Made by a program: the position numbers and the translations under genes. Below the pieces are notes generated by a model, which saw nothing but the letters and a program-made list of their open reading frames with translations, did no database searches and had not been told where the DNA came from. 40,832 nucleotides of DNA from Frankiales bacterium. Lineage in GTDB: Bacteria; Actinomycetota; Actinomycetes; S36-B12; CAIYMF01. This document shows positions 1,831-20,941 of the stretch, in pieces (position 1 is the stretch's first letter; the number at the start of each line of letters is the position of its first letter). The DNA is taken from assembly GCA_016125335.1 (NCBI GenBank), contig WGLY01000037.1, positions 1-40,832 of the forward strand. The letters run 5' to 3'.

Positions 1831-2409
1831 GTGGGCGAGTACTCGGTGCGGGCGCTGGAGCCGGGGACGTGGGACGCGTTCGCGCGGATGGTGGAGCGGC
1901 ACAACGGCGTGTTCGGCGGGTGCTGGTGCACGTGGTTCCACACCATGAGCTCGGAGAAGGAGCGCAGCTACGACGCCAACCGCGCGCTCAAGTGCCGCCT
2001 GGTCGACGAGGGCCGCGCCCACGCGGCGCTGGTGATGCACGAGGGCGAGGTGGTCGCCTGGTGCCAGTTCGGGTCGCCCGAGGAGCTGCCGAACATCTAC
2101 CACCGCAAGCAGTACGAGCAGGAGCTCGACGTCCTCCCGGACTACCGGATCACCTGCATCTTCGTCGACAAGGCCCACCGGCGGCGGGGGCTGTCGATCC
2201 TCGCCCTGCGGGGCGCGCTCGACCTGATCGCCGACGCCGGCGGCGGCCTGGTCGAGGGGTATCCGCACGACGCGGGCGGGAAGCGGAAGTCGGTGCTCTA
2301 CGACGGGACCCGGGAGCTGTTCGAGCGGGCCGGCTTCGAGTACGTCCGCAGCAAGGGCAGCGGCAACTGCGTGATGCGCCGCTCCGTGGAGCCGGTCGCG
2401 GCGCCCTGA
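1831..2409 (+). CDS. GNAT family N-acetyltransferase
   Basis: 192 residues. The acetyl-CoA binding motif A is at about residues 113-125: a beta strand (ITCIFVD) runs into HRRRGLSILAL, the expected R/Q-x2-G-x-G/A-type loop. A Cys-rich N-terminal stretch (C31, C33, with nearby Trp and His) and a C-terminal YPHDAGGK segment recall a common actinobacterial GNAT subfamily of unknown substrate. The GTG start is preferred because GGAGG (1822-1826) lies 4 nt upstream; the longer open frame upstream overlaps the divergent MFS promoter and is not credible. It stands alone, divergent from the MFS gene and convergent with the GntR gene. The substrate is not inferable. Confidence 0.8.
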   Translation: MGEYSVRALEPGTWDAFARMVERHNGVFGGCWCTWFHTMSSEKERSYDANRALKCRLVDEGRAHAALVMHEGEVVAWCQFGSPEELPNIYHRKQYEQELDVLPDYRITCIFVDKAHRRRGLSILALRGALDLIADAGGGLVEGYPHDAGGKRKSVLYDGTRELFERAGFEYVRSKGSGNCVMRRSVEPVAAP

Positions 2410-2448
2410 CCGCCGGGGGAGCCGGGACAGCCGCGGGACGCGGCCGGG

Positions 2449-3108
2449 TCAGCGGCGGCCCAGTGCAGCAGTCACGGCGGTCACCGAGTTGGCCCGGTGC
2501 GCGTGCTGCGCCGCGACGGCGGCCTCGGCGTCGCCGGAGCGCAGCGCGGCGAGCAGCGCGCGGTGCTCGTGCCGCACCCGCCGGCGGTTGGTGACGCCGG
2601 CGAAGTAGACGCTGCGGTAGACGTCGGTGGCGTCCCACAGCTGGCGCAGCGTGCGCGAGAGCCGCGGCATCGCCGCCGCGTCGAACAGCAGGAAGTGGAA
2701 CTGGCGGTTGGCGACCGTCATGGCCCCGAGGTCGCCGGCGCTGCCCGCGGCGTCGACGTCGGCGGCCGCGGCGGCCAGCGCCGCGAGGTCGGTCGAGGTC
2801 AGGCGCGGCACCGCGACGCGGATGGCCTCGGCCTCGAGCAGCTCGCGCAGGCGGTAGACCTCCACGAGGTCGTCCACCGACAGCTCGCTCGCGACGTAGC
2901 CGCGGCGTGGGAGGTAGCGCACCGAGCCCTCGCCCTCGAGCACCTTGAGCGCCTCGCGCAGCGGCACCCGGGAGACGCCGAGCTGCTCGGCGAGCGCCTC
3001 CTGCCGCACGGGGGACCCGGGCGCGATCTCCCCGGTGACCAGCATGCGGCGCACGGCGTCGAGCACCGCCTCGGTCGTGGTGGGCGGGCGCACGGAGGCG
3101 GTGCTCAC
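2449..3108 (-). CDS. GntR family regulator, FadR/FCD type
   Basis: 219 residues. An N-terminal winged HTH (about 8-72) contains the typical GntR signature around QEALAEQLGVSRVPLREAL, and a helical FCD ligand-binding domain occupies about 80-205, including the D-L-x-E-x-Y-R-L-R-x-L-L-E segment and metal-site histidines in Q-F-H and H-E-H. The GTG start at 3108 overlaps the stop of the CoA-transferase gene (GTGA), so it is the last gene of a three-gene operon with that gene and glutaryl-CoA dehydrogenase. FCD regulators commonly bind an acid or acyl-CoA of the pathway they control. The likely target is the palindrome in the operon promoter at 5442-5457, making this a self-controlling repressor for glutarate or glutaryl-CoA. 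The function in catabolism is inferred from context. Confidence 0.88.
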   Translation of the reverse strand: MSTASVRPPTTTEAVLDAVRRMLVTGEIAPGSPVRQEALAEQLGVSRVPLREALKVLEGEGSVRYLPRRGYVASELSVDDLVEVYRLRELLEAEAIRVAVPRLTSTDLAALAAAAADVDAAGSAGDLGAMTVANRQFHFLLFDAAAMPRLSRTLRQLWDATDVYRSVYFAGVTNRRRVRHEHRALLAALRSGDAEAAVAAQHAHRANSVTAVTAALGRR

Positions 3109-4229
3109 CCGTGCTCCCCGAGCGCGGGGGGCGGCAGCCGGTAGGCCGCCGGCGTCCCGGACAGGCGCAGCGGGTTGGCCACCTGGGCCACCTCGCTGCC
3201 GGGCACCCGCACCACGGGGTCGAGGCCGAGCGACTCCGCGAGCGCGAACGCCTCGCGCAGGTCGTTCACCGGCCCGCACGGCACGCCGGCCGCCGTGAGA
3301 CGCGCCTGCCAGTGGTCGGCGCCACGGGTGCGCAGCACCTCCTCGAGGGCGGCGCGCACCTCGTCGCGGTGGGCGACGCGCTCGGGGTTCGTCGCGTAGC
3401 GCGGGTCGTCGGCCAGCGGCGCCACGCCCAGCACCTCGGCCAGGGCGCGGAACTGGCGGTCGTTGCCCACTGCCAGCACGAGCGGCCGGTCGGCCGTGGC
3501 GTAGACGGCGTAGGGCGTGATCGAGGGGTGGTCGTTGCCGAGGATCCCCGGCACCACGCCGCCCGCGGCGTAGGCCGAGGACTGGTTGACCATGGCGGAG
3601 AGCAGCGACGAGAGCAGGTTGACCTCGACGTGCTGCCCGCGACCCGTGCCGACGCGGTGGTGCAGCGCGGCGAGGATGCCGTAGACCGCGTGCAGCCCGG
3701 TGACGACGTCGACGAGTGCCACGCCCACCTTCGTCGGCTCGCCCGGCGCCGGCCCGGTCACCGACATGAGGCCGCCCATCGCCTGCACGAGCAGGTCGTA
3801 GCCGGGCAGGTCGCGACCGGCCCCGGAGCCGAAGCCGCTGACCGAGCACAGCACGAGGCCGGGGTTGTCCCGGGCGAGGTCGTCGTAGCCGAGGCCGAGG
3901 CGCTCGAGGGTGCCGGGCTTGAAGTTCTCGACCATCACGTCGGCCCGCAGGGCGAGGTCGCGCGCCCGCGCCAGTCCCTCGGCGGTGCCGAGGTCGATCG
4001 CCACCGAGCGCTTGTTGCGGTTGACGCCGGTGAAGTACGTCGCCGTGCCGTCCGCGGCGTACGGCGGCCCCCAGTGACGGGTGTCGTCGCCCGCGCCGGG
4101 GCGCTCGACCTTCACGACGTCGGCGCCGAGGTCGCCGAGCAGCATCGTGGCGTACGGACCGGCGAGCACCCGGGAGAAGTCGGCGACGAGCAGGTCGGAC
4201 AGCGCGCCCGCGCCGGCGGTGCCCGTCAT
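3105..4229 (-). CDS. CaiB/BaiF family CoA-transferase (probable glutarate CoA-transferase)
   Basis: 374 residues, usual length for class III CoA-transferases. Family marks are the N-terminal SDLLVADFSRVLAGPYAT segment, VVKVERPGAGDDTR, a NRNKRS turn and the P-G-Y-D-L-L-V-Q-A segment with the presumed catalytic Asp145, which forms the acyl anhydride with the CoA donor. The start ATG overlaps the stop of the acyl-CoA dehydrogenase by one base (TGATG), and its own stop overlaps the GntR start. Pairing with a glutaryl-CoA dehydrogenase suggests that it activates glutarate, probably with succinyl-CoA as donor, in the way mammalian SUGCT does. That substrate is inferred from the neighbour; other dicarboxylates are possible. 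Confidence 0.85.
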   Translation of the reverse strand: MTGTAGAGALSDLLVADFSRVLAGPYATMLLGDLGADVVKVERPGAGDDTRHWGPPYAADGTATYFTGVNRNKRSVAIDLGTAEGLARARDLALRADVMVENFKPGTLERLGLGYDDLARDNPGLVLCSVSGFGSGAGRDLPGYDLLVQAMGGLMSVTGPAPGEPTKVGVALVDVVTGLHAVYGILAALHHRVGTGRGQHVEVNLLSSLLSAMVNQSSAYAAGGVVPGILGNDHPSITPYAVYATADRPLVLAVGNDRQFRALAEVLGVAPLADDPRYATNPERVAHRDEVRAALEEVLRTRGADHWQARLTAAGVPCGPVNDLREAFALAESLGLDPVVRVPGSEVAQVANPLRLSGTPAAYRLPPPALGEHG

Positions 4230-6411: not shown

Positions 6412-7053
6412 ATGGGCGGCGCGGACTCCGTGACGAGCGGTGCCGGCCTCGCCTCCGCCCGGCCCGGCCCGTCCGCCACGGACCCCGACCGGGACCCGGA
6501 CACGCCCGGCGACCGGCGCCGGCCGGGGCGGCGCGCCGCCGCGCTCGTGCTGGCCGTGGTGCTGCTCGCGGTGGTCGGCGTCCTGGGCTGGACCTGGGCG
6601 TCCTCGCGCGGCGACGGCCCGGCGGCGCCGTCGTCGTCCGGGCCGGTGCTGCTCACCCACGACGGGCTCGCCGGCGTCGTCGCCTCCTCCGGCCACGCGG
6701 TCTACTGGGCCGGGCCGCGCGGCCTCGCGCGGTGGGAGGTCACCGTCGACGGCACCGACGTCTACGTGCGCTACCTGCCCGAGGGCGAGCGGCCCGGGTC
6801 GCGCACGCCCTACCTCACGATCGGCACGTACGAGAACGCCGACGCCTACGCCGTGGTGCAGGCGGCCGCCAAGGCCGCGGGGGCGCAGTCGCAGAGGCTC
6901 GCCGGCGGCGCGCTCGTGGTGGCCCCGGCGGCCACCCCGGACTCGGTGTTCTTCGCCTTCCCCGGCACGCCCCTGCTGATGGAGGTGTTCGACCCCACGC
7001 CGGGGCGGGCGCTCGCGCTCGTGCGCTCCGGCGACGTGCAGCCGCTGGCCTAG
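6412..7053 (+). CDS. Small membrane-anchored protein of unknown function
   Basis: 213 residues: a disordered cytoplasmic N-terminus rich in Asp, Pro and Arg (1-43), one membrane helix at about 44-64 ([20 protein letters not shown]), then an extracytoplasmic domain of about 145 residues with an alternating beta pattern. Within the domain are HAVYWAG, a YVRYLP strand and a segment [20 protein letters not shown] that could be a helix. I do not recognise the family. The type II anchored topology suggests a role at the outer face of the membrane. The start is chosen from the leaderless -10 and the beginning of sensible composition. It is divergent from the collagen-like gene and converges with the oxidase gene at 7076. 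Confidence 0.75.
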
Positions 7054-7070
7054 CCGGCCTGGTGGCCGGC
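7053..7070. terminator. GC hairpin between convergent genes
   Basis: GCCGGCC (7053-7059) and GGCCGGC (7064-7070) pair across TGGT. It begins at the last base of the stop codon of the 6412 gene and lies just beyond the stop of the oxidase gene at 7076, so it could end transcription from both sides. There is no T-run. Confidence 0.5.
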
Positions 7071-7075
7071 GTCGG

Positions 7076-8473
7076 TCAGTGCCCGCCGAGGAACGGCGCG
7101 AACAGCTCGGCCCGCCGCGACGGCTTGCCCGTGCGCTCCTCGGCGCCGTCGGCCGAGCCCATGACCCGCAGGCCCAGGTTGACGCCGAGCCAGCGCAGCG
7201 GCTCGGGCTCCCACGCGGGCGAGCGGTGGTTGACCCACGGCAGCCGCGTGATGTCGCTGCGCTCGCCGCGCACGAGGTCGGCGAGGGTGCGCCCGGCGAG
7301 GTTGCTCGAGGCCACGCCGTCGCCGACGTAGCCGCCGGCCCAGCCGATCCCCGTGGTCTCGTCGAGGCCCACGGACGGGAACCAGTCGCGCGGGATGCCC
7401 AGCGGGCCGCCCCACGTGTGGGTCACGGCGTGGCCCTCGACGGCGGGGAACAGGTCGCGCAGCACGCGCCAGAGCTCGGCGAACACCGCCGGCTCGCGGT
7501 CGAACTCGGGCCGGATGCGCGAGCGCAGGTGGTAGGGCGCGCCGCGGCCGCCGAACACCAGGCGGTCGTCGGCGGTGCGCTGCCCGTAGATGATGAGGTG
7601 GCGGTGGTCGGCGAAGGTCTCCCCGTGGCGCAGCCCCACCTCGTCCCAGAACGACGCGGGCAGCGGCTCGGTGGCCAGCACGAGGGAGTACACCGGCGCG
7701 ACGTCGCGGCGCGATCCCGGCAGCTGCGACGACCACGCCTCGGTGGCCCGCACGACGCGCGCGGCCACGACGTCCCCGCGCGTGGTGCGCACCACCCCGG
7801 GCTCGATCGACGTCACCCGGGTGCCCTCGTGGACGACGACGCCGAGCCGCTCCACCGCGAGGGCCAAGCCACGGACGAGCCGGGCCGGGTGGATCGAGGC
7901 GCAGTCGGGCGTGTAGGTGGCGCCCAGGACGTCGGTCGCGCCCAGCCGCGCCCGGGCCGCGTCGGCGTCGAGCAGGTCGAGCCGCTCGGGCCCGAACCCC
8001 CACGAGCGCTGCTCGGCCACCTCGGTGCGGGCCCGCTCGAGCTGCACGGGGGTGCGGGCCAGCACGACGGTGCCGCCCTTGCGGAAGTGGCAGTCGATGC
8101 CCTCGGCCGCGGTCGCGCGGCCCACCTCGTCGACGGTGTCCACCATGGCCCGGTCCAGCGCCACGGCCGCCTCGCGGGACGACGCGGCGGCCACCTTGGC
8201 CAGGCTCGTCGGGAACAGGGCCGAGGCCCAGCCCCCGTTGCGCCCGCTCGCGCCGAACCCCGCGGTCTCCGCCTCGAGCACGACGACCTTCAGCGACGGG
8301 TCGGCCTTCGCCAGGTAGTACGCCGTCCACAGGCCGGTGAACCCCGCGCCCACGATCGCGACGTCGGCGACCATGGGGCCCGGCAATGCCGGCCGCGGCG
8401 GCCCGGCGAGCTCGTCGGGCAGCGAGTCCCACCAGAACGACAGGCCGCGGTAGCCCGCTGCGCGCGCGCTCAC
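7076..8473 (-). CDS. FAD-dependent amine oxidase, DAO family (PuuB-like)
   Basis: 465 residues. A Rossmann FAD-binding motif VGAGFTGLWT lies at 41-50, followed by VVVLEAETAGFGASGRNGG, the second flavin-contact segment typical of the gamma-glutamylputrescine oxidase and glycine oxidase group. The C-terminus carries the usual G-W-A-G-G-Y-V-G-D-G-V FAD-closing motif. The likely reaction is oxidative deamination of a primary or secondary amine, such as putrescine, gamma-glutamylputrescine or an N-methyl amino acid, to an aldehyde and H2O2. The GTG start at 8473 overlaps the stop of the upstream pyridoxamine-oxidase-like gene (GTGA), so translation is probably coupled. Its place next to an omega-aminotransferase and a semialdehyde dehydrogenase supports polyamine breakdown; the exact substrate is open. 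Confidence 0.8.
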   Translation of the reverse strand: MSARAAGYRGLSFWWDSLPDELAGPPRPALPGPMVADVAIVGAGFTGLWTAYYLAKADPSLKVVVLEAETAGFGASGRNGGWASALFPTSLAKVAAASSREAAVALDRAMVDTVDEVGRATAAEGIDCHFRKGGTVVLARTPVQLERARTEVAEQRSWGFGPERLDLLDADAARARLGATDVLGATYTPDCASIHPARLVRGLALAVERLGVVVHEGTRVTSIEPGVVRTTRGDVVAARVVRATEAWSSQLPGSRRDVAPVYSLVLATEPLPASFWDEVGLRHGETFADHRHLIIYGQRTADDRLVFGGRGAPYHLRSRIRPEFDREPAVFAELWRVLRDLFPAVEGHAVTHTWGGPLGIPRDWFPSVGLDETTGIGWAGGYVGDGVASSNLAGRTLADLVRGERSDITRLPWVNHRSPAWEPEPLRWLGVNLGLRVMGSADGAEERTGKPSRRAELFAPFLGGH

Positions 8474-12759: not shown

Positions 12760-13581
12760 TCAGACGCTCACGGAGTAGACCGGCTGCGTCGTCGGCTGCG
12801 GCGAGCCGCCGTCCGGCTCGACCGTGACCCCCACGGCGCCGGCCGACCCGAGGTCGCCCGCGAGCAGGGTCGCGGTGTGCTCGCCCGCGGGCACGAAGCC
12901 GGCGGGCGACGCGGCACCGGAGTCGGTGATGAACCAGATCTGGTAGGTGCGCCCCGCGGGTGCCGGCGGCAGGCCGTCGGTGACCAGCACGGCGCGGCCC
13001 TGCGAGGCCGAGGACACCACTGCGGCTCGGCCGCCCGTGGCCACCGGTGCGCTCACGGTCGTGGCGTCCGGGGCGGTGAGCACCGCGGTCACGTCGGCGG
13101 CGGCCGCCGTCACCGAGCCCAGCTGGCGGTCGAGGCTCACCGCGCGCCAGGTGGCGCCCACGGACAGGACCGCGAGCAGCGCGGCCGCGACCTGGAGCCA
13201 CCGGCCGGGGCGCCGCTGCGCGCGGCGCAGGGGGACGGGCGCGTCGCCCGGCCCGGCGTCGTCGGCCGGCTCGGCCGGGCTGCCGGCCTCGCGAGGACCC
13301 TCGACGGCGGTCGTGTCCTCGGGAGCACCGGCCTCCACCACGGGCGGCAGCGGCCGCACGTCGCGGATCCCGCTGAGCACCGCGGCCCGCAGGCTGTCGG
13401 GCGGCGCGGTGGCCGCGTCCTGGGCGAGCGCCGCGGTGGCGGCGCGGAACGAGGAGACCTCGTCGCGGCAGGACGCGCACGAGCGCAGGTGGTCCTCGAA
13501 CGCGGCGCGCTCGTCAGGGTCGAGCGCGTCGAGCGCGTAGGCGCCGGACAGCGCGTGGATGTCCGGGGAGTCGCCGGTCAT
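12760..13581 (-). CDS. rskA: RskA-like anti-sigma-K factor
   Basis: 273 residues. The N-terminal zinc-type anti-sigma domain begins with ALSGAYALDALDPDERAAFEDHL and has His31, Cys35 and Cys38 (H-x3-C-x2-C). An acidic and Pro-rich linker (about 78-115), one membrane helix at about 128-146 and a C-terminal extracytoplasmic RskA domain (about 150-273) follow, with the Y-Q-I-W-F-I and P-A-G-E-H-T strands usual for that domain. It should hold SigK at the membrane until regulated proteolysis frees it. The ATG overlaps the sigK stop by 4 bp (ATGA). The signal sensed is unknown; in mycobacteria RskA is linked to redox and secreted FAS1 antigens. Confidence 0.9.
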   Translation of the reverse strand: MTGDSPDIHALSGAYALDALDPDERAAFEDHLRSCASCRDEVSSFRAATAALAQDAATAPPDSLRAAVLSGIRDVRPLPPVVEAGAPEDTTAVEGPREAGSPAEPADDAGPGDAPVPLRRAQRRPGRWLQVAAALLAVLSVGATWRAVSLDRQLGSVTAAAADVTAVLTAPDATTVSAPVATGGRAAVVSSASQGRAVLVTDGLPPAPAGRTYQIWFITDSGAASPAGFVPAGEHTATLLAGDLGSAGAVGVTVEPDGGSPQPTTQPVYSVSV

Positions 13582-14183
13582 GCCTCCACCCCCAGGGTGT
13601 CGCGCAGGCGGATCAAGCCGTCGCGCATGCGGGTCTTGACGGTCCCGAGCGGCACGTCGAGCAGCTCGGAGACCTCGCGGTGCGTGTAGCCCCCGTAGTA
13701 GGCGAGGGTCAGCGCCTCGCGCTGCACCTCGGTCAGGGTGGTCAGGGCGCGGCGCACCCGCGCCGCCTCCAGTGTCGTCTCCGCGACGCTCGCGACCACG
13801 TCGTACTCCGGTCCCTCGCCCAGGGCGGCGAACCGGGTGTCGCGCTCGCGCGCCGACTGGGCGGACCGCACCCGGTCGACGGCCCGACGGTGCACGATCG
13901 TGAGCATCCAGGCGAGCGGGCCGCCGCGGGCCGGCTGGTAGCGGGCGGCCTGGCGCCAGATCTCGAGGTAGGCCTCCTGGGCCACCTCCTCGGCCTGCGC
14001 CGGGTCGCGCACCACACGGCGTGCGACGCCGTAGACGCGGGAGCTCGTGCGGTCGTACAGCTCGGCGAAGGCCGCCTCGTCGCCGCGGCTGGAGCGGGTG
14101 AGCAGCGAGGTGAGCAGCGCTGCCTCGTCCTCCCCCGGCGCGGGGCCGGGGGAGGACGAGGCGGGTGTGGGACGCATCGGCAT
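13578..14183 (-). CDS. sigK: ECF RNA polymerase sigma factor SigK
   Basis: 201 residues from the ATG at 14183 (a second ATG is at 14177). Region 2 covers about 35-105, with GDEAAFAELYDRTSSRVYG, the D-P-A-Q-A-E-E-V-A-Q-E-A-Y-L-E-I-W helix and W-M-L-T-I-V-H-R-R-A-V-D. Region 4 covers about 140-195, with the HTH Y-T-H-R-E-V-S-E-L-L-D-V-P-L-G-T-V-K-T-R-M. The coupled anti-sigma gene is of RskA type and the preceding gene encodes a FAS1 lipoprotein, the same association as SigK/RskA with MPT70/MPT83 in mycobacteria, so the SigK assignment is firm. It is probably transcribed from the promoter at 14936-14962, giving positive autoregulation. The gap from the FAS1 stop is only 22 bp. Confidence 0.9.
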   Translation of the reverse strand: MPMRPTPASSSPGPAPGEDEAALLTSLLTRSSRGDEAAFAELYDRTSSRVYGVARRVVRDPAQAEEVAQEAYLEIWRQAARYQPARGGPLAWMLTIVHRRAVDRVRSAQSARERDTRFAALGEGPEYDVVASVAETTLEAARVRRALTTLTEVQREALTLAYYGGYTHREVSELLDVPLGTVKTRMRDGLIRLRDTLGVEA

Positions 14184-14205: not shown

Positions 14206-14865
14206 TCACTTCGGCAGCAGCACGCCGTCGATGAGGTACACGGTCGCGTTCGCCGTCTGGACGTTGCCGCACACGACCTTCGCCGAGCCGTTGACGGTGA
14301 AGCTGTCACCCGAGCCCGTGACGTCGAGCGTCGCGCCCTCGAGGGTCTTGTGCATCCCGTCGAGCTGCGACGGCGAGAGGCGGCCGGGGACGACGTGGTA
14401 GGTCAGCACCGTGGTGAGCAGGCCCTTCGGGTCGCCGAGCGCCTTGTCGAGCGTGGCCTTGGGCAGCTTGCCGAAGGCGTCGTTGACCGGGGCGAACACG
14501 GTGATGCCGTCCGCGCTGTTGAGGGAGTCGACCAGGCCGGCCTTCGACACCGCCGAGACGAGCGTCGAGAGCACCGGGTTGTGCGACGCCGCGGTCGCGA
14601 CGGGGTCGACCGCCATGCCGTCGAAGCTTCCGGGGCCGGAGGCCGGCACCGCCGAGCAGGCCGACCCGAACACCGCGTCGGCGGCCGACGGCGCCGCGGA
14701 CGACGTCGCGGGCGCGGGGGAGGACGACGCCGGCATCGGCGTGCTCGCGGCCGGCGTCGAGGCCGTGGTGGTGCTGGCCGACGAGCCGCAGGCGGCGAGG
14801 GTGAGGGGGAAGGCGACGGCGGCGGTGGCGATCGCCGCCCGGCGACGCAGGACGGTGCGGGTCAT
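14206..14865 (-). CDS. FAS1 (fasciclin) domain lipoprotein
   Basis: 219 residues. Arg-rich N-terminus, hydrophobic stretch and the lipobox L-T-L-A-A-C with Cys26 mark a lipoprotein of the outer face of the membrane. A Ser/Thr/Pro/Ala linker (about 28-60) leads to a single FAS1 domain (about 85-219) with the H1 motif ITVFAPVNDAF and H2 motif TYHVVPG. It resembles mycobacterial MPT70/MPT83, whose genes are SigK targets. It is the first gene of the operon with sigK and rskA. GGGAG lies 8 nt before the ATG. FAS1 domains mediate adhesion or protein contacts; here a link to the envelope redox system is likely but not shown. Confidence 0.92.
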   Translation of the reverse strand: MTRTVLRRRAAIATAAVAFPLTLAACGSSASTTTASTPAASTPMPASSSPAPATSSAAPSAADAVFGSACSAVPASGPGSFDGMAVDPVATAASHNPVLSTLVSAVSKAGLVDSLNSADGITVFAPVNDAFGKLPKATLDKALGDPKGLLTTVLTYHVVPGRLSPSQLDGMHKTLEGATLDVTGSGDSFTVNGSAKVVCGNVQTANATVYLIDGVLLPK

Positions 14866-14935
14866 GAGCTGCTCCCTGTGGGGGTCTCGGGGACGCGCTG
14901 GGCGCCCGGTCCGCCCGGGTGGGCGGACACCCCTC

Positions 14936-14962
14936 GTTCGGAGCCGCGGCCGGTCCGGATGG
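14936..14962 (-). promoter_or_regulatory. SigK-type promoter of the FAS1-sigK-rskA operon
   Basis: On the minus strand CCATCC (14962-14957), 15 bases, then CCGAAC (14941-14936). The hexamers are those described for mycobacterial SigK (CCATCC and CCGAAT, there with a spacer of about 17 bp as I recall). The same pair with the same 15-bp spacing stands before the molybdoenzyme gene at 18911-18937. The expected leader to the FAS1 start is about 65 nt. Confidence 0.8.
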
Positions 14963-15001
14963 GTCGGATCGGGCCGGGATCGCCGTGCGGCGCGCGTCGG
15001 C

Positions 15002-15211
15002 TCAGCCGGCGAGCATCTTCTGGACCGCCTGGCGCGACACGCCGAGCTCACGGGCGAGGTCGGCCTGGCTGTGCCCGCGGGCCGTGAGGGTCTCGAGCAG
15101 GCGCCGCCGCTCGGCGTGCAGCCGCTGCGCCTCGGCGTGGTGGCGCAGCGCCTCCGCGCGCACCTCCACCAGCCTGCGCAGCAGCTCGTCGTCGGAGAGT
15201 CGAGGTGTCAT
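15002..15211 (-). CDS. Tiny helix-turn-helix protein (69 residues)
   Basis: Residues 6-45 form one long amphipathic helix rich in Leu, Arg, Glu and His, probably a coiled-coil dimeriser. Residues 47-66 are a plain HTH (SQADLARELGVSRQAVQKML). No effector domain is present, so it is a minimal DNA-binding protein; it could be a self-regulator or an antitoxin-like partner without a visible toxin. It starts at ATG 15211, six bases after a putative -10, and two near-identical palindromes cover its promoter (15218-15256), which argues for autorepression. It stands between the SigK operon and a short operon of an NAD(P)-binding protein and a SnoaL-like protein, all on the same strand. Confidence 0.8.
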   Translation of the reverse strand: MTPRLSDDELLRRLVEVRAEALRHHAEAQRLHAERRRLLETLTARGHSQADLARELGVSRQAVQKMLAG

Positions 15212-15217
15212 GCGCTC

Positions 15218-15256
15218 ACGGTGTCAACCAGGGTTGTCATCTGTCAACCCTGGTTG
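15218..15256 (-). promoter_or_regulatory. Twin palindromic operators on a leaderless promoter
   Basis: CAACCAGGGTTG (15225-15236) and CAACCCTGGTTG (15245-15256) are each CAACC-N2-GGTTG palindromes. They are also exact inverted copies of one another across 8 bp. Their centres are 20 bp apart, about two turns of the helix, so two dimers could sit on one face. On the minus strand a consensus -35 TTGACA (15247-15242), an 18-bp spacer and CACCGT (15223-15218) lead to the ATG at 15211. Binding would cover both promoter elements. Confidence 0.85.
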
Positions 15257-15269
15257 TCGATCGGCGGCG

Positions 15270-16142
15270 TCAGGGGGAGAGCGGCGCGGCCAGGACGTCG
15301 TCCAGGCTCGTGCAGGGGACGCCGGGATACCGGTCGCGCACGTCGGTGAGCCCGGCCGGGCGGTCGCCGGCGTCCATCGCCAGGGCGGTGCCCAGGACGC
15401 GGCCCAGGCTGGGCACGATCCGGCCGGCGCTGCCCGCGACCACGCGGATCACCGCGGGGGGCACGGTGCGCGGCGCGGCGCTGCGGCCGGCCGAGCGCTG
15501 CACCGCTGCGGCCAGCTCGAGCAGGGTGAGGTTCTCCGGGCCCGTCACCGGCAGGGTGCGCCCCCGCGCGTCCGGGTCCGACACCACCGCGTCGACCAGG
15601 GCCGCGACGTCGAGCACGGAGACGAAGTTCACCCGCGAGCGGCCGCGCCCGAGCACCACGGGACGGCCGCCGCGCCGGGCCGACGTGGCGAGCAGGTCGA
15701 TCCACATCTCGAGGTAGGCGGTCGGGGCCACGACCGTCGCGGGCACGCCGCTGGCGCGCAGGTGCGCCTCCGCGGCGTGCTTCATGCGGAAGAGCTCCAC
15801 CGGGCTGTCCGGCGCCGCCCCGAGCACCGAGACCAGGACGACGTCGGCGCCCACCTGCGCGGCGGCGTCGACGAGGTGGCGGTTGCCGTCACGGTCGACC
15901 GCCCGGGGGCCGCCGGGGGAGGTGAGGCCGTGGACCGCGGACACCACCACCTGGGCGCCGTCGAGGCCGCGCCTCACCGCGGTGGCGTCCCGCACGTCGG
16001 CCGCGACCAGCTCGACGCCGTCGTCGAGGCCGGAGACCCGTCGCGGGTCGCGGGTGAGCACGCGGACCCGCTCGCCGCGGGCGGCCAGCCGGCCGACGAG
16101 CAGCCGGCCCAGCCGGCCCGTGCCGCCGGCCACGACGATCAC
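15270..16142 (-). CDS. NAD(P)-binding protein, atypical SDR (NmrA/YwnB-like)
   Basis: 290 residues. The protein begins directly with the Rossmann strand and glycine motif V-I-V-V-A-G-G-T-G-R-L-G-R-L-L (1-15), followed by basic residues R-V-L-T-R-D-P-R-R that would favour NADPH. Later parts have D-V-R-D-A-T-A, the N-F-V-S-V-L-D-V-A-A-L-V segment and a C-terminal cap. It lacks a clear Y-x3-K catalytic pair, as in NmrA-like and complex I-associated atypical SDRs, so it may be a redox sensor or an epimerase/reductase-like enzyme. The GTG start overlaps the SnoaL stop (GTGA), so the two form an operon, probably controlled by the divergent TetR. Confidence 0.8.
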   Translation of the reverse strand: MIVVAGGTGRLGRLLVGRLAARGERVRVLTRDPRRVSGLDDGVELVAADVRDATAVRRGLDGAQVVVSAVHGLTSPGGPRAVDRDGNRHLVDAAAQVGADVVLVSVLGAAPDSPVELFRMKHAAEAHLRASGVPATVVAPTAYLEMWIDLLATSARRGGRPVVLGRGRSRVNFVSVLDVAALVDAVVSDPDARGRTLPVTGPENLTLLELAAAVQRSAGRSAAPRTVPPAVIRVVAGSAGRIVPSLGRVLGTALAMDAGDRPAGLTDVRDRYPGVPCTSLDDVLAAPLSP

Positions 16143-16567
16143 GGTGCGGCCCGCCCCGCGACCGTCGTGCGCACGACCTCGTCGATGCCCGGGCCGCCCG
16201 CCACCACCGGCTCGAGGTAGAAGCGGGCCCATGTCGCACGGGTGTCCGGCACGCCGAGCACCAGGACGCCGCGCATGAGGTGCGGCGAGCCGTCCGGGCG
16301 CGTGCCGCGGTGCTCCATCTCCGCCCACACGGTGTCGCCGTCGACGGCGCTGCGGATCACCTCCGCGTGCACGTCGGGCACGGCGGCGAAGATCTGGGTC
16401 CAGTTGCGCCGCACCTGGTCCGCGCCGGTGAAGCCCCGCTCCGGGTGCACCGGGGTCTCGTTGACGTAGTCGGGCGCGAAGCAGTCCACCAGCGCGTCGA
16501 GGTCGTGGGCGTTGGTCGCCGCGGTCAGCCGCTCGAGCAGCGCCGCGGGGCGCGGGTCCGTGGTCAT
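16139..16567 (-). CDS. SnoaL-like / NTF2-fold protein
   Basis: 142 residues, one NTF2-like alpha+beta cone. Helix 1 ends in A-T-N-A-H-D-L-D-A-L-V-D-C-F-A-P-D-Y, then G-A-D-Q-V-R-R-N-W-T-Q-I-F-A-A-V-P-D and a sheet with V-W-A-E-M-E-H-R-G. This is the usual actinobacterial nuclear-transport-factor-2 family pattern, found in polyketide cyclases and many small enzymes; a ligand pocket is likely but the reaction is unknown. GGAGGGG stands before the ATG at 16567. It is the first gene of an operon with the NAD(P)-binding protein and is divergent from the TetR gene across a perfect operator. Confidence 0.85.
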   Translation of the reverse strand: MTTDPRPAALLERLTAATNAHDLDALVDCFAPDYVNETPVHPERGFTGADQVRRNWTQIFAAVPDVHAEVIRSAVDGDTVWAEMEHRGTRPDGSPHLMRGVLVLGVPDTRATWARFYLEPVVAGGPGIDEVVRTTVAGRAAP

Positions 16568-16601
16568 GGTCGGGATCCCCTCCAGTCGTGTGTTACTGTT
16601 C

Positions 16602-16618
16602 GCTGTATCGGATACAGC
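16602..16618. promoter_or_regulatory. Perfect 17-bp TetR operator
   Basis: GCTGTATC (16602-16609), one central G and GATACAGC (16611-16618) form a perfect palindrome in the 54-bp gap between the SnoaL and TetR genes. GATACA (16611-16616) is also a possible -10 for a leaderless tetR start at 16622, so binding would block both directions. Confidence 0.85.
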
Positions 16619-16621
16619 ACT

Positions 16622-17299
16622 ATGGAACAGAAGGAGGACGCCGTCAACCCCCCGCAGGAGAAGGCGTCGCCGGGCCCCCGCCGCTACGACTCCCGGGGCC
16701 GGCGCGCGCAGGCCGAGCGGACTCGGGCGCGCATCGTGGAGGTGGCGCGCGAGCGCTTCCTGCGCGACGGCTACGCGACCACCACCGTGGCCGCGATCGC
16801 CGGCGACGCGCAGGTGTCGGTCGAGACCGTCTACAAGGCGTTCGGCGGCAAGCCGGGGCTGGTGCGCGCGATCGTGGCGGCCGGGCTGGAGGGCGCCGGG
16901 CCGGTGCCGGCCGAGCGGCGCTCCGACCACCTCACCGCCACCGAGGCCGACCCGCGCCGGATCATCCACGGCTGGACCAGGCTGGCGATGGAGGTGGCGC
17001 CGCGCGTGGCCCCCGTCGAGCTGCTGGTGCGCGACGCCGGCGTCGGCGACCCGCAGATGGCGGACCTGTACGAGGAGATCGAGCAGGCCCGCCTGGACCG
17101 CATGACCGACAACGCGCGGCGCTTCGCCGAGGGCGGCCACCTGCGCCCGGGCCTGACCGTGGACGACGCGGCCACCGTCATGTGGACCTACACCGCACCG
17201 GTGCTCTACGAGCTGCTGGTGCTGCGGCGCGGCCTGACCGTCGAGCAGTACGCCGACTTCACCGAGTCGGCCCTGGTGTCGGCGCTGCTGGCCCCCTGA
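16622..17299 (+). CDS. TetR family transcriptional regulator
   Basis: 225 residues. The HTH is at about 30-75: A-R-I-V-E-V-A-R-E-R-F-L-R-D-G-Y-A-T-T-T-V-A-A-I-A followed by V-S-V-E-T-V-Y-K-A-F-G-G-K. The rest is an all-helical ligand domain with little similarity that I can name. The N-terminal 20 residues are basic and Pro-rich. The ATG at 16622 lies 3 bp after the palindromic operator at 16602-16618, which fits strict self-repression. It is divergent from the SnoaL and NAD(P)-binding genes, its likely targets. The ligand is unknown and may be a substrate or product of that pair. Confidence 0.88.
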   Translation: MEQKEDAVNPPQEKASPGPRRYDSRGRRAQAERTRARIVEVARERFLRDGYATTTVAAIAGDAQVSVETVYKAFGGKPGLVRAIVAAGLEGAGPVPAERRSDHLTATEADPRRIIHGWTRLAMEVAPRVAPVELLVRDAGVGDPQMADLYEEIEQARLDRMTDNARRFAEGGHLRPGLTVDDAATVMWTYTAPVLYELLVLRRGLTVEQYADFTESALVSALLAP

Positions 17300-17310
17300 C
17301 GCGCCGGAGC

Positions 17311-18903
17311 TCAGGAGACGGTGACGACGATCTCGTGCCAGCCCTGGGCTCCGCTGGGGAAGGGCGTGAGCCGGGCCTGCGGCTGCGTCGTCCCGGTGGC
17401 GTCGGTGGCCCGGGCCCGCAGGGTGTGGCGCCCGGGGGTGGCGTCCCACGCGATCGCCCACTGCCGCCACGTGTCGTCGCTGGGCACCGCGCCGAGCCGG
17501 GCCGGCCGCCAGTCGCCGTCGTCCACCTGCACCTCGACGCCGTCGATGCCGCGGTGCTGGGCCCAGCACACGCCCGCGACGGCCACGCGCCCGGCGGGCA
17601 CCGTCGACAGCGGCCGCGGCACGTCGATCCTCGCCATCGTGCGCACCGGGGCGTCGGTGGCCCAGCCGCGCTTGGTCCAGTACGCCTGGTCCGCGGCGTA
17701 CGTGGTGGCGGTGAGCCCGGTGAGCCACTTCGTCGCCGAGACGAACCCGTAGAGGCCCGGCACGACCAGGCGGGCGGGGAACCCGTGCTCGGCGGGCAGC
17801 GGCTCGCCGTTCATACCGACGGCGACGATGGCGTCGCGTCCGTCGGTGGCGGCAGCCATGGGGGTGCTCGCGGTGAAGCCGTCCGAGGAGCGGGAGAGCA
17901 GCATGTCCGAGCCGGGGCGCACGCCGGCGCGGGAGAGCAGGTCGGTGAGCCGGACGCCGAGCCAGCGCGCGTTGCCGGCGTACGGGCCGCCCACCTCGTT
18001 GGACACGCACGTGAGCGTGAGGTCGCGCTCGATCATGGGCATCGCGAGGAGCTCGTCGAACGAGATCGTGAAGGGCCGCTCGACCATCCCGTCGACCTCG
18101 AGGCTCCAGCTGCCGGGGTCCAGCGTCGGCACCACGAGGGCCGTGTCCACCCGGTAGAAGTCCGCATTGGGCACGCGGAACGGCGTGACGCCCGGGACTC
18201 CGACGTCCACGCCCGCGGGCAGGGGCCGCTCGGGGTCGACGGGAGCGGGCAGGCGCACCGCCGCCCGCGCGGCACCGACGTCGGACCGGCGGCGGCCGAC
18301 GACCTCGCCCAGGCCGCCCACGAGGAGCGCGGCGCCGGCCAGTCCCAGCACCCCGGCGAGCACGGAGCGCCGCCCCGGGGTGGGCGCGTCGCCCACGCCG
18401 CTGGGGTCGTCGCGCAGGGGCGTGCGCCTCGGCCGGGTGAGCCAGGCCAGCGACGCAGCGGCGATCGCGGCCCCGGCCAGCGACGGCAGGGTGTCGGCCG
18501 GGCTCGCGCCGGGACGGCTCAGCGCGGCCACCGCCGGCACCGCGCCGAGCGCTGCCGCGAGGACGACGGCGGTGCGACGTCGCCATGTCGCCAGCAGGCC
18601 CACCAGCGCGGCCGCGGCCAGGAGCAGCACCGAGATGGTGGCGAGCAGCACCGTCTTGTCGGCGGTGCCGAACGTGGCGACGGCGAACTCCTTGAGCCAC
18701 GTCGGCGTCAGGTCGATGAACGCCGCCCCCACCGCCACGAGCGGCGAGCTCGCCGGACGGGTGAGGGCCGCGAGCAGGTGGGCCGCCGCGACACCCGCCC
18801 CCACGGCGGCCACCCCCGCCCCCGCGGCCGCCCACCGCGACAGCGCCGGCAGCGGTCCGGTGGGCACGACGGCACTGGGTTCGGTGCGGGTCCAGGTCCT
18901 CAT
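17311..18903 (-). CDS. Membrane-anchored sulfite-oxidase-family molybdoenzyme
   Basis: 530 residues. The N-terminal 200 residues contain several membrane helices (about 28-48, 84-106, 112-130, 138-155, 181-199). A periplasm-side molybdopterin domain (about 225-410) follows, with Cys299 in LTLTCVSNEVGG as the molybdenum ligand, and a C-terminal Mo-co dimerisation domain (about 415-528). The family includes sulfite oxidase and YedY-like protein-methionine-sulfoxide reductases; the in-frame membrane part suggests an envelope redox role. It begins with ATG 18903, seven bases after a CCGAAC element, so its mRNA is probably leaderless and SigK-driven. It converges with the TetR gene, with only 11 bp between. 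The substrate is unknown. Confidence 0.88.
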   Translation of the reverse strand: MRTWTRTEPSAVVPTGPLPALSRWAAAGAGVAAVGAGVAAAHLLAALTRPASSPLVAVGAAFIDLTPTWLKEFAVATFGTADKTVLLATISVLLLAAAALVGLLATWRRRTAVVLAAALGAVPAVAALSRPGASPADTLPSLAGAAIAAASLAWLTRPRRTPLRDDPSGVGDAPTPGRRSVLAGVLGLAGAALLVGGLGEVVGRRRSDVGAARAAVRLPAPVDPERPLPAGVDVGVPGVTPFRVPNADFYRVDTALVVPTLDPGSWSLEVDGMVERPFTISFDELLAMPMIERDLTLTCVSNEVGGPYAGNARWLGVRLTDLLSRAGVRPGSDMLLSRSSDGFTASTPMAAATDGRDAIVAVGMNGEPLPAEHGFPARLVVPGLYGFVSATKWLTGLTATTYAADQAYWTKRGWATDAPVRTMARIDVPRPLSTVPAGRVAVAGVCWAQHRGIDGVEVQVDDGDWRPARLGAVPSDDTWRQWAIAWDATPGRHTLRARATDATGTTQPQARLTPFPSGAQGWHEIVVTVS

Positions 18904-18910
18904 GACCCGG

Positions 18911-18937
18911 GTTCGGAGCCGGCGGCCCGGCGGATGG
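18911..18937 (-). promoter_or_regulatory. SigK-type promoter of the molybdoenzyme gene
   Basis: CCATCC (18937-18932), 15 bases and CCGAAC (18916-18911) on the minus strand, with a GGCT before CCGAAC as in the FAS1 promoter. Seven bases separate it from the ATG, so the start codon would be the transcript's first bases. Identical hexamers and identical spacing at two units 4 kb apart make chance unlikely. Confidence 0.82.
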
Positions 18938-18972: not shown

Positions 18973-20622
18973 TCAGCGCCGGAGCGAGTCGAGGCCGAGC
19001 AGGGCGACGTGCAGCGACAGGCAGGACTCCACGGAGTCGAGGTCGACCGAGAGCACCCGCTCGATGCGGTGCAGCCGCTCGTAGAACGACGGCCGGGACA
19101 GGTGCGCGGCGTCCGCGGCCGCGGACTTGTTGCGCCCCGCGGCGAGGTACACGCGCAGCACGCCCACGAGGTCGCTGCCGTGCTGCGCGTCGTGCGCGAG
19201 CAGCGGACCGAGCTCGCGCTCGACGAAGGCCTGGAGCCGGTCGTCGTCGCGCAGCAGGTGCAGCAGCCCGCGCAGCCGGACGTCGGGCAGCCGGTAGTAC
19301 GCGGGCGCCGCCCCCGGGCCGCCCGAGGGCGCGGCGTCGGCCACCTGCGCCGCCTCGAGGAACGCCCGCCGCACGTCGCGCACGTGGGCCACCACGGAGC
19401 CCACCGCCATCACGCGCCCGTCGTCGGGGACGCCGGCGCCCGCCGCGCGCTTGGTGAGCGCCGCGGAGAGCCGGCTCAGCGTGCGGTCGACGTCCTCGCG
19501 CGGGGGCAGGCTCAGCAGCACGCCCACCGTCGCGTCGTCGACGGCGCCGACCAGCGCCGGCACCCGGGTGTCGCGCACGGCCGCCGACACCGTCTCGGTG
19601 AAGTCGCGCAGCCGCTCCTGGGCGGCCAGCGCCGGCCCCTCGTGGCCTCCGGCCAGCCGCACCAGGACGCACACCAGCGCGCGCCCCTCGAGCGGCACCC
19701 CCAGCGCGGCGGAGCGCGCCGCGGTGTCGGTCAGCGCCATCGACCCGGAGATGACGCCGGTGAGCAGGGTGCGGTGGGTCTGCCGCTCGAGGCTCTCCCG
19801 GTCGCGCTCGACGAGCCGCGAGAGGGCCACGGTGGCCGCGCCGCGCTCGAGCAGCATCGAGTCGCGCACGGACGGGGCGACGTCGGTCACGAGCACCAGG
19901 CGGCCCCAGTCCTGCCCGCGCGCGCCCACCGCCGTGTGCAGCCAGTCGGTCGCCTCGTCGTAGGCCGTGCGCTCGGCGGCGCGCACCGCGCGGCTGCGGT
20001 CCTCCCAGCCGTCGAGCACGGAGGAGAGGTCCCGGCCCGCGGCGTCGACCGCGAGCACCTGGTGGGCCAGGTTCTCCAGCACCACGGGACGTCCGGCCAT
20101 CCGGGCCACCTGGCGGACCACCTCCGTGGGCGGCGCCCCCTCGACCGCGAGGCCGGTGAACGCGGCGTGCACCTCGTCCGAGGCGCGCAGCTCGGCGAGC
20201 TGCGCGTCCACGATGCGCGCGTGCACCGCCTCGGTGATCGCCGCGAACCGCGACTCGCGGGTCAGCTCCACGAGCACCAGGCCGCGACGCTCCGCGGCCC
20301 GGACCATCGAGTCGGGGAGCCGGTCGAAGCGCCGGCCGGTCTCCACCATCACGCCGGTGACGCCCGCGTTCGCCAGCCCCTCCACCCAGTCGGCGAGGCC
20401 GGCGTCGTCCTCGGGCAGCAGCACCCCGGTCGTGAGCAGCAGCTCGCCGCCGTGCAGGAGCCGGGCGACGTCGGCGACCTCCGCGGCGTGGGTCCACCGG
20501 ACCGTGCGCTCGAGGGCCGCGGCGCCCGCGCGCACCACCGGCCCGGCGTCGTGCACGACGGGGAGCAGCAGGATCTCCGACACCGAGGGGTAGATGTCGT
20601 CGCGCCGGTCGGGGGAGGCCAC
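18973..20622 (-). CDS. PucR family transcriptional regulator (polyamine operon side)
   Basis: 549 residues. The N-terminal PucR domain starts Y-P-S-V-S-E-I-L-L-L-P-V-V and has the L-x-G-G-E-L-L-L-T-T-G segment. A central GGDEF-like region and a C-terminal HTH_30 domain (about 490-545) follow, with N-K-S-A-A-A-D-A-A-H-L-S-R-P-S-F-Y-E-R-L. PucR proteins often activate genes for purine, amine or omega-amino acid use. GTG 20622 is chosen because TAGCCT (20636-20631) lies 8 nt upstream and the conserved domain begins shortly after. It is divergent from the aldehyde dehydrogenase and Pot operon and probably controls it in response to polyamines or their aldehydes. Confidence 0.85.
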   Translation of the reverse strand: MASPDRRDDIYPSVSEILLLPVVHDAGPVVRAGAAALERTVRWTHAAEVADVARLLHGGELLLTTGVLLPEDDAGLADWVEGLANAGVTGVMVETGRRFDRLPDSMVRAAERRGLVLVELTRESRFAAITEAVHARIVDAQLAELRASDEVHAAFTGLAVEGAPPTEVVRQVARMAGRPVVLENLAHQVLAVDAAGRDLSSVLDGWEDRSRAVRAAERTAYDEATDWLHTAVGARGQDWGRLVLVTDVAPSVRDSMLLERGAATVALSRLVERDRESLERQTHRTLLTGVISGSMALTDTAARSAALGVPLEGRALVCVLVRLAGGHEGPALAAQERLRDFTETVSAAVRDTRVPALVGAVDDATVGVLLSLPPREDVDRTLSRLSAALTKRAAGAGVPDDGRVMAVGSVVAHVRDVRRAFLEAAQVADAAPSGGPGAAPAYYRLPDVRLRGLLHLLRDDDRLQAFVERELGPLLAHDAQHGSDLVGVLRVYLAAGRNKSAAADAAHLSRPSFYERLHRIERVLSVDLDSVESCLSLHVALLGLDSLRR

Positions 20623-20941
20623 GGCGGAGCAGGCTAGCGCCGGGGCCGACAGGCCGTCAGGCATCGGCCCGCTCGCCTGCCAGGCTGTCGGTTGCCTGCG
20701 CCGGTGCCGCGACCGAGGGTGGGGCCACGCCGGGCGCTCCCCGGCGTCCGCGCGATACCGCGGAATCGGCCCGGCTGTGCAACGGGAAGCGCAGCCTTGC
20801 GTTACAAATCTGATGCAATTCGTCGTCAACGCTGCCGACGGCCACGGAATCCCTTGTCCTGGGCCGGGGAGCGTGCGAGGATCCCCCCGGTTTGGGCGGA
20901 CGCCGCGGTCCGGGGGCTCGCGGAAGGCAGGAGGAGAGCCG
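20623..20941. promoter_or_regulatory. 319-bp divergent control region of pucR and the polyamine operon
   Basis: No gene is seen. For the rightward operon TTGTCC (20854-20859), a 17-bp spacer and GAGGAT (20877-20882) form a promoter, leaving a leader of about 50 nt with AGGAGGAG (20929-20936). Leftward, TAGCCT (20636-20631) serves pucR. Between them TTGCGT (20797-20802) and ATGCAA (20813-20818) form a near-perfect inverted repeat, with a further GCAA nearby (20779-20782), in a notably AT-richer patch. This is a candidate PucR site. Confidence 0.55.

Follow-up and report, generated by a model that had tools for sequence, protein, structure and literature searches.

The question raised by this locus is whether a SigK-type sigma factor, besides transcribing its own operon, also switches on a membrane molybdoenzyme encoded in the same stretch of DNA. 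The window, that is, the whole stretch of 40,832 nucleotides analyzed here, comes from a Frankiales bacterium with a genome of 3.93 Mb. It carries a gene for a FAS1 (fasciclin) lipoprotein followed by sigK and rskA, and, beyond a block of four other genes, a gene for a membrane molybdoenzyme, called MO below. A preliminary description, made from the letters alone, had read the two units as a SigK regulon with a shared promoter type. The results support this interpretation, and we consider it highly probable that the window holds a SigK–RskA module with two target transcripts, FAS1-sigK-rskA and MO. The features concerned are the following:

12760–13581, minus strand: rskA, membrane anti-sigma factor (RskA_C PF10099, E 8.8e-27; zf-HC2, 1.3e-8; N-terminal HxxxCxxC of the zinc type)
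13578–14177, minus strand: sigK, extracytoplasmic function (ECF) sigma factor of the SigK type, without cysteines (NCBIfam PRK09646, 267.3 bits, cut-off 226)
14206–14865, minus strand: FAS1 lipoprotein of the MPT70/MPT83 type (PF02469, E 1.8e-30; lipobox-like LAAC in the signal)
14936–14962, minus strand: putative SigK-type promoter of FAS1-sigK-rskA, CCATCC-N15-CCGAAC (pattern scan, conservation)
17311–18903, minus strand: MO, membrane molybdoenzyme of 530 residues (PF00174, 3.9e-44)
18911–18937, minus strand: putative SigK-type promoter of MO, CCATCC-N15-CCGAAC (pattern scan; 7 nt before the ATG)

Domain and profile searches agreed with the gene identities first given, namely RskA, SigK, a FAS1 lipoprotein, and a molybdoenzyme of PF00174. 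The sigma factor contains sigma-70 regions 2 and 4, and it was the only one of the 16 PRK09646 matches in the genome to exceed the cut-off. The nearest solved structures were SigK 4nqw (E 1.5e-50) for this protein and MPT70 1nyo (E 4.7e-39) for FAS1. The reading frames of rskA and sigK overlap by 4 nt, and an RskA-type anti-sigma factor thus adjoins sigK, for which an ATG at 14183 is an alternative start. In the related loci described below, a lipobox-like motif was found in 38 of the 40 FAS1 proteins and HxxxCxxC in all 38 RskA proteins. Like the window SigK, 22 of the 44 SigK proteins of these loci have no cysteine, and the two-cysteine trait of group ECF19 is missing from the window protein; according to passages of PMC7509140, this trait occurs in 56% of ECF19, being common and not defining, and cysteine-less members exist. 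Because the window SigK has no cysteine and every RskA of the loci has HxxxCxxC, redox sensing, if any, may take place at RskA.

The two sites are called SigK-type after what we take to be the letters of the mycobacterial SigK promoter consensus. When the window was scanned with the pattern CCATCC-N14-18-CCGAAY, two matches were obtained, both with N15 and both on the minus strand, against 0.05 expected, and none of 100 shuffles gave two. The scan confirmed that the same two hexamers stand at the same 15-bp spacing at 14936–14962 and 18911–18937, as had been noticed at first. Across the genome, the pattern matched four times and a reversed control pattern three times. Many chance matches genome-wide would have spoken against the preliminary description; in the 3.93 Mb, no exact N15 site was found besides the two in the window. 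Chance as the origin of these sites was rejected by the expected count, the shuffles, and the genome scan. The remaining two genome matches had N17. One lies inside an open reading frame (ORF), and neither is followed by an ORF of at least 80 aa starting within 200 nt downstream, a crude test; having no ORF start nearby, they were dropped as targets. With one mismatch allowed at N15, 21 further sites appeared, 19 of them inside ORFs of at least 80 aa with a high G+C content at third codon positions, which is a weak and crude test, as both window sites overlap such ORFs too. A CAATCC-N15-CCGAAC site on contig 25 was considered as a third target and dropped: it lies inside an ORF, and the only start downstream is a TTG at 95 nt.

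The conservation of the sites was then evaluated in related loci. MO alone was used as the query; of 271 relatives, the best 80 were taken as named loci, and with 17 further places in 12 of the family's 17 genomes the set came to 97 loci and 1,363,451 bases. Not all of them are independent, since L007 and L024 are on the same contig and one species supplied both L027 and L042. In the 97 loci, leaving out L001–L004 and matches starting after query residue 75, there were 39 exact N15 sites, of which 34 were at the start of MO (18), FAS1 (9), or sigK (7), that is, with the end of the site no more than 300 nt upstream or 130 nt downstream of the estimated start. At spacings of 11–14 and 16–19, only seven exact sites were found, none of them near these three genes, and the reversed motif gave none. 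The five other N15 sites include one in L042 preceding an MO with a late-starting match, one in L032 before a flavin gene, and one in L052 before a small DUF4383 gene (6761–7169), which starts 39 nt after the exact site, ahead of FAS1 and MO.

A matrix trained on 39 distinct FAS1 and sigK sites only gave the consensus C[CA]ATCC-N15-CCGAA[CT]; directly before the −10 element, the commonest letters were G, C, and T (in 35, 30, and 20 of the 39). The GGCT said to end both window spacers, before CCGAAC, is indeed there, and it is largely part of this consensus. The matrix was applied to 80 MO genes, with L024, MO genes lacking a complete frame, and matches starting after residue 60 set aside, and the threshold was the 99% level of a null of 1,600 regions simulated with first-order Markov chains based on these MO regions. 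A site over this threshold was detected at N15 in 46 of the 80 MO regions, where about one was expected, while spacings of 12, 13, 14, 17, and 18 gave 2, 0, 0, 1, and 4.

The distance from site to start codon was also conserved. In the window, 7 nt separate the end of the CCGAAC at 18911 from the MO ATG at 18903; for FAS1, the distance from the site to the ATG at 14865 is 70 nt. In a count over 88 MO and 55 FAS1 genes, 30 of the MO genes had a site of at least 11/12, and an in-frame ATG or GTG stood exactly 7 nt after it in 22 of these 30 and 8 nt after it in one more; for FAS1 genes with a site, an in-frame start at 7 nt was seen in 1 of 25. ECF transcripts usually start about 7 nt from the −10 element, so the MO mRNA is very probably leaderless. 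The leaderless start first proposed for the window therefore appears to be a conserved trait of MO genes with a strong site.

Which sigma factor reads the motif is best indicated by the other genes that it precedes. SigK-type sites were found before flavin amine-oxidase-like genes in L032, L058, L051, L070, L074, L072, and L157 (assigned by Pfam in L032 and L051 only). The gene of L032 (5834–7867, minus strand) encodes a flavin amine oxidase fused to DUF1365, and CMAS comes after it; behind the L051 gene stand DUF1365 and, at a greater distance, DUF1295, and in L070 CMAS is downstream. The flavin gene is divergent from MO in L032, L058, and L051. In L156, a DsbD-TM/thioredoxin gene (DipZ-like, 1937–3680), divergent from FAS1, has the near-consensus site CCATCC-N15-CCGAAG. 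The mycobacterial genes Rv0449c–Rv0446c presumably belong to the same families (of the flavin amine oxidase, DUF1365, CMAS, and DUF1295 kind). Because sites of the same kind precede flavin amine-oxidase and DipZ-like genes, which are of the sort known from the mycobacterial SigK regulon, this recurrence ties the motif, as judged from sequence, to SigK, and is the best evidence that it is SigK's. Passages of PMC9861118 list dipZ, mpt83, and mpt70 as having SigK-dependent promoters, and those of PMC7509140 describe M. tuberculosis sigK as autoregulated via the Rv0449c promoter. In the genome of the window, no flavin amine oxidase homologue was found at 1e-20, which proves little, and a DipZ-like query matched only over its residues 276–420, the thioredoxin part.

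The order of the genes also links MO to the sigma factor. Among the 80 named loci, 40 had MO, FAS1, sigK, and rskA in the fetched stretch, 11 more had FAS1 and/or sigK, and 29 had MO alone; the commonest linked order was MO-FAS1-sigK-rskA (20 loci). In the close kin L102, L103, and L104, the order is PucR-MO-FAS1-sigK-rskA with nothing intervening, and in L105 and L106 other genes lie between MO and FAS1. The window itself has four genes at this place, together with the two units described above:

15002–15211, minus strand: gene for a small helix-turn-helix (HTH) protein, in the block between the units (HTH_3, E 5.8e-6)
15270–16142, minus strand: gene for an NmrA-like NAD(P)-binding protein, in the same block between MO and FAS1 (PF05368, 4.6e-24)
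16139–16567, minus strand: gene for a SnoaL-like protein, in the same block (PF12680, 1.4e-20)
16622–17299, plus strand: gene for a TetR-family regulator, in the same block, divergent from the SnoaL-like gene (PF00440, TetR_N, 1.4e-9)

When 13 loci, 12 from other genomes, were searched, these four genes had no homologue there. From this layout we infer an MO-FAS1-sigK-rskA module into which the four genes were inserted later, the two promoters holding the units together. The gap between MO and FAS1 seems to be a repeated insertion place. By eye, its frames in L105 (9880–11110) and L106 (650–1840) are on the opposite strand, one resembling peptidase E and one a PHP-type phosphatase. The inserted genes of the window have palindromic sequences of their own. 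Directly upstream of the small HTH gene, at 15222–15258, are two 17-nt copies, 20 nt apart, of the imperfect palindrome TGTCAACC..GGTTGTC, probably the operator of that gene itself, and between the divergent SnoaL-like and TetR genes, at 16602–16618, is a perfect 8-nt inverted repeat, GCTGTATC-N-GATACAGC, a likely TetR operator.

The enzyme encoded by MO was characterized by modeling. Hydropathy gave five N-terminal helices (residues 24–49, 75–109, 109–133, 138–156, and 177–204), which were also present in an AlphaFold2 model based on a 39-sequence alignment of the window and locus proteins (predicted local distance difference test, pLDDT, 88; predicted template modeling score, pTM, 0.83), together with a SUOX domain and a C-terminal immunoglobulin-like domain. 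The twin-arginine pair R178-R179 is directly before helix 5, and RRxx[LFIVM] occurs at residues 120–260 in 81 of 81 MO proteins. MO is thus predicted to be a five-helix membrane protein of the Sec/Tat (Tat, twin-arginine translocation) type, with an extracytoplasmic molybdopterin domain. In its fold, the model was nearest to sulfite oxidases, such as chicken sulfite oxidase 2a9d (Z 31.7, root-mean-square deviation 2.4, 298 residues aligned), with Z 28–32 to sulfite oxidases and dehydrogenases, including their C-terminal domain, and Z 20.0 to MsrP. The alignment ran to residue 530 with the sulfite oxidases and only to 452 with MsrP, so that MO has a C-terminal domain absent from MsrP. Among helix residues, no conserved histidines of the heme type were found (the best N-terminal His column had 21 of 81). 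In the same genome, on contig 13 (G000:C13:16199-17740, locus L017), is an MO paralogue, 46% identical and without a SigK-type site; in a quick tree it grouped with L011 and L018, apart from the other MO genes.

A number of observations weigh against SigK control of MO, or against its generality. Of 60 genomes of the order, 47 contain the loose motif CMATCC-N15-CCGAAY one or more times and 11 the reversed control, and because of this the motif alone proves little and has weight only with position and conservation. The expectation that the motif pair would stand before the same genes in relatives held in part: it was found before MO, FAS1, and sigK, but not in all. Thirty-four of the 80 MO regions had no N15 site over the null, some of them with FAS1 and sigK adjacent, and in L105 the MO site reached at best 9/12, with N16, and the FAS1 site 10/12. 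Spacing 16 exceeded the null in 13 of the 80 MO regions. A site of at least 11/12 was only weakly associated with adjacency to FAS1/sigK (20 of 27 MO genes with a site, 27 of 53 without; Fisher p 0.057), and on a quick tree of the 80 genes the presence of a site changed 17 times, compared with 22.9 in shuffles (3 of 500 as low), so it is clustered but patchy, with no clean clade split found between genes with and without sites. Among the Microbacteriaceae treated below, FAS1 in L151 and L153 is without a site of 11/12, and CAATCC-N15-CCGAAC lies inside the sigK coding sequence in four of the six sigK loci (L151, L152, L154, and L155), and also in L077. These internal matches in Microbacterium may be coding mimicry or an internal promoter; the near-matches inside sigK in four loci indicate that coding sequence can mimic the site. 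In five of the 34 site-less cases (L035, L048, L049, L052, and L097), MO is downstream of FAS1 in the same direction, and a site is found before FAS1 or further upstream. Inspection by eye suggests that the matches at spacing 16 include N16 promoters whose start codon follows at 7 nt (L032, L058, L064, and L026).

Two rival readings of the regulation were considered. ECF groups can be alike in their −10 and −35 elements, and the 16 matches to the SigK model show that the genome has many ECF paralogues, so another ECF factor of similar specificity might read the sites instead of SigK or beside it. We regard this as highly improbable: the sites precede sigK itself or a FAS1 gene adjoining it, and all 10 genomes chosen for an MO site without sigK in the locus had SigK elsewhere, although SigK is common anyway, being present in six of eight other genomes chosen without such an MO site, which makes the contrast small. 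According to passages of PMC7509140, moreover, SigK sites are conserved across actinobacteria, and SigK orthologues recognize them. It is hardly credible, in turn, that only FAS1-sigK-rskA depends on SigK while MO is transcribed mainly from another promoter, its site being a leftover of an ancestral operon. A PucR-family regulator (18976–20637) adjoins MO in the window, and likewise in L102–L105, L024 (on the same contig as L105), and L025; it is a second conserved neighbor of MO, which SigK does not explain, and together with the 34 MO regions lacking a clear N15 site it speaks for such a promoter. Against it are the 12/12 site of the window MO, with its ATG 7 nt away at a distance that recurs in 22 of 30 genes, and the sites kept where MO is far from sigK. 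In six Microbacteriaceae among the 10 genomes (L151–L156), MO is away from sigK and has kept its site, while sigK is within about 2.2 kb of FAS1, which has a site of 11/12 in L152, L154, and L156.

With MO taken as a target of SigK, its reaction can be read in more than one way. The preliminary description had called the enzyme sulfite-oxidase-like; this is true of the fold, the SUOX domain included; for the reaction it is no more than a possibility. A genuine sulfite oxidase or dehydrogenase, which would make the regulon one of sulfite detoxification, is favored by the structural scores, higher for that group and its C-terminal domain than for MsrP, and by SorA as the best profile match. We nevertheless consider it unlikely. 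MO fell below the curated equivalog cut-offs (SoxC 115.2 of 420 bits, SorA 107.6 of 600, SorT 85.9 of 570), and Cys299, invariant in 39 MO sequences, is followed in the alignment by VSNEV instead of the AGNRR of chicken sulfite oxidase. MO thus seems to lack a sulfite-binding arginine. Somewhat less doubtful, but still on the unlikely side, is an MsrP-like activity, by which MO would act on surface proteins, among them FAS1, reducing their oxidized methionines or similar groups, by analogy with ECF-controlled MsrPQ of Gram-negative bacteria. In Brucella, an ECF sigma/anti-sigma pair directly controls an HOCl-induced MsrQP-like operon (PMC8315932, in part), and five-helix Tat-dependent molybdenum proteins such as Sco3746 are called distant MsrP/MsrQ homologues in a passage of PMC5449189. 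The MsrP score of MO was however only 49.8 of 207 bits, and its additional C-terminal domain and the missing heme histidines also argue against this activity.

Comparison with known systems places the SigK module of the window between them. The FAS1-sigK-rskA cassette and its site are already known: in passages of PMC7509140, mpt83-sigK-rskA with a conserved SigK site is described as conserved in actinobacteria and Yersinia. The M. tuberculosis complex shares with the window the FAS1 lipoprotein, SigK, RskA, and the SigK site before the FAS1 gene; in the window, by contrast, the putative second target, and neighbor, is a molybdoenzyme. In addition, M. tuberculosis RskA reportedly does not depend on a zinc motif (PMC7406223, in part), whereas the window RskA has HxxxCxxC and its SigK no cysteines. 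Sco3746-type Sec/Tat proteins have the same five helices, a twin-arginine directly before helix 5, and a C-terminal molybdenum-cofactor domain; conserved histidines in helices 2–4 were proposed there for heme b (PMC5449189, in part), and none is conserved in MO. In the BcrS-AbcS/BcrXQP system of Brucella, an MsrP-type molybdoenzyme is encoded next to an ECF sigma/anti-sigma pair that controls it (PMC8315932; enzyme type from PMC5449189, both in part), but this system involves ECF16, a six-helix anti-sigma factor of the NrsF family, MsrP and MsrQ as separate proteins, and a methionine-rich peptide, and FAS1 is unmentioned in the passages concerned. Sulfite oxidase, SorA, SorT, and SoxC have their fold and C-terminal domain in common with MO, which stays below the curated cut-offs of these families, has five N-terminal helices, and carries other residues after the molybdenum cysteine. 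In our literature searches, no link of SigK or FAS1-SigK to a molybdoenzyme was found, although Veyrier 2008 and the 2021 ECF reclassification could contain one.

The dependence of both units on SigK, its autoregulation, and the control by RskA are inferred from the sequences, and the following mechanism is proposed. RskA, in the membrane, would keep SigK inactive until an envelope signal frees it. RNA polymerase with SigK would then read CCATCC-N15-CCGAAC before FAS1-sigK-rskA, giving autoregulation and a surface lipoprotein, and the same site before MO, giving a leaderless mRNA for a membrane enzyme with an extracytoplasmic domain. Despite the four-gene block, the two promoters would keep MO and FAS1-sigK-rskA in one regulon. 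The signal for SigK–RskA is reported as unknown or obscure in passages of PMC7509140 and PMC9861118. In M. kansasii, two fasciclin genes rise modestly in light (6- and 3-fold), the dipZ gene between them does not, and the authors find the reason unclear (PMC9861118, in part); in a soil actinobacterium, RskA falls upon UV exposure (PMC8965627, in part). These data are hints of an oxidative or photo-oxidative cue, and no more.

For the chemistry of MO, an extracytoplasmic redox or repair reaction upon oxidative or photo-oxidative damage, with FAS1 as partner or client, appears most likely, and is the least certain part of the proposal. Going further, we suggest very tentatively, as an idea more probably wrong than right, that the ancestral actinobacterial SigK core consisted of FAS1 and a leaderless, Tat-inserted molybdoenzyme of a new SUOX subfamily, the two forming an extracytoplasmic pair for redox repair that oxidative or photo-oxidative damage to the envelope would induce. 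The mycobacterial MPT83/DipZ arrangement would then be derived, a DipZ-type thioredoxin protein having taken over the redox role.

The SigK–RskA switch, a stress response known from mycobacteria, where it induces an adhesion-type surface protein, thus also appears to turn on MO, here and in many other soil actinobacteria, which offers a lead to the purpose of the switch. This would add to the regulon a conserved, probably leaderless membrane enzyme of the Sec/Tat type. A conserved enzyme under a SigK-type promoter in harmless soil actinomycetes may, in addition, be a handle on the SigK signal, since it provides non-pathogenic experimental hosts, a reaction to assay, and a defined promoter to use as a reporter.

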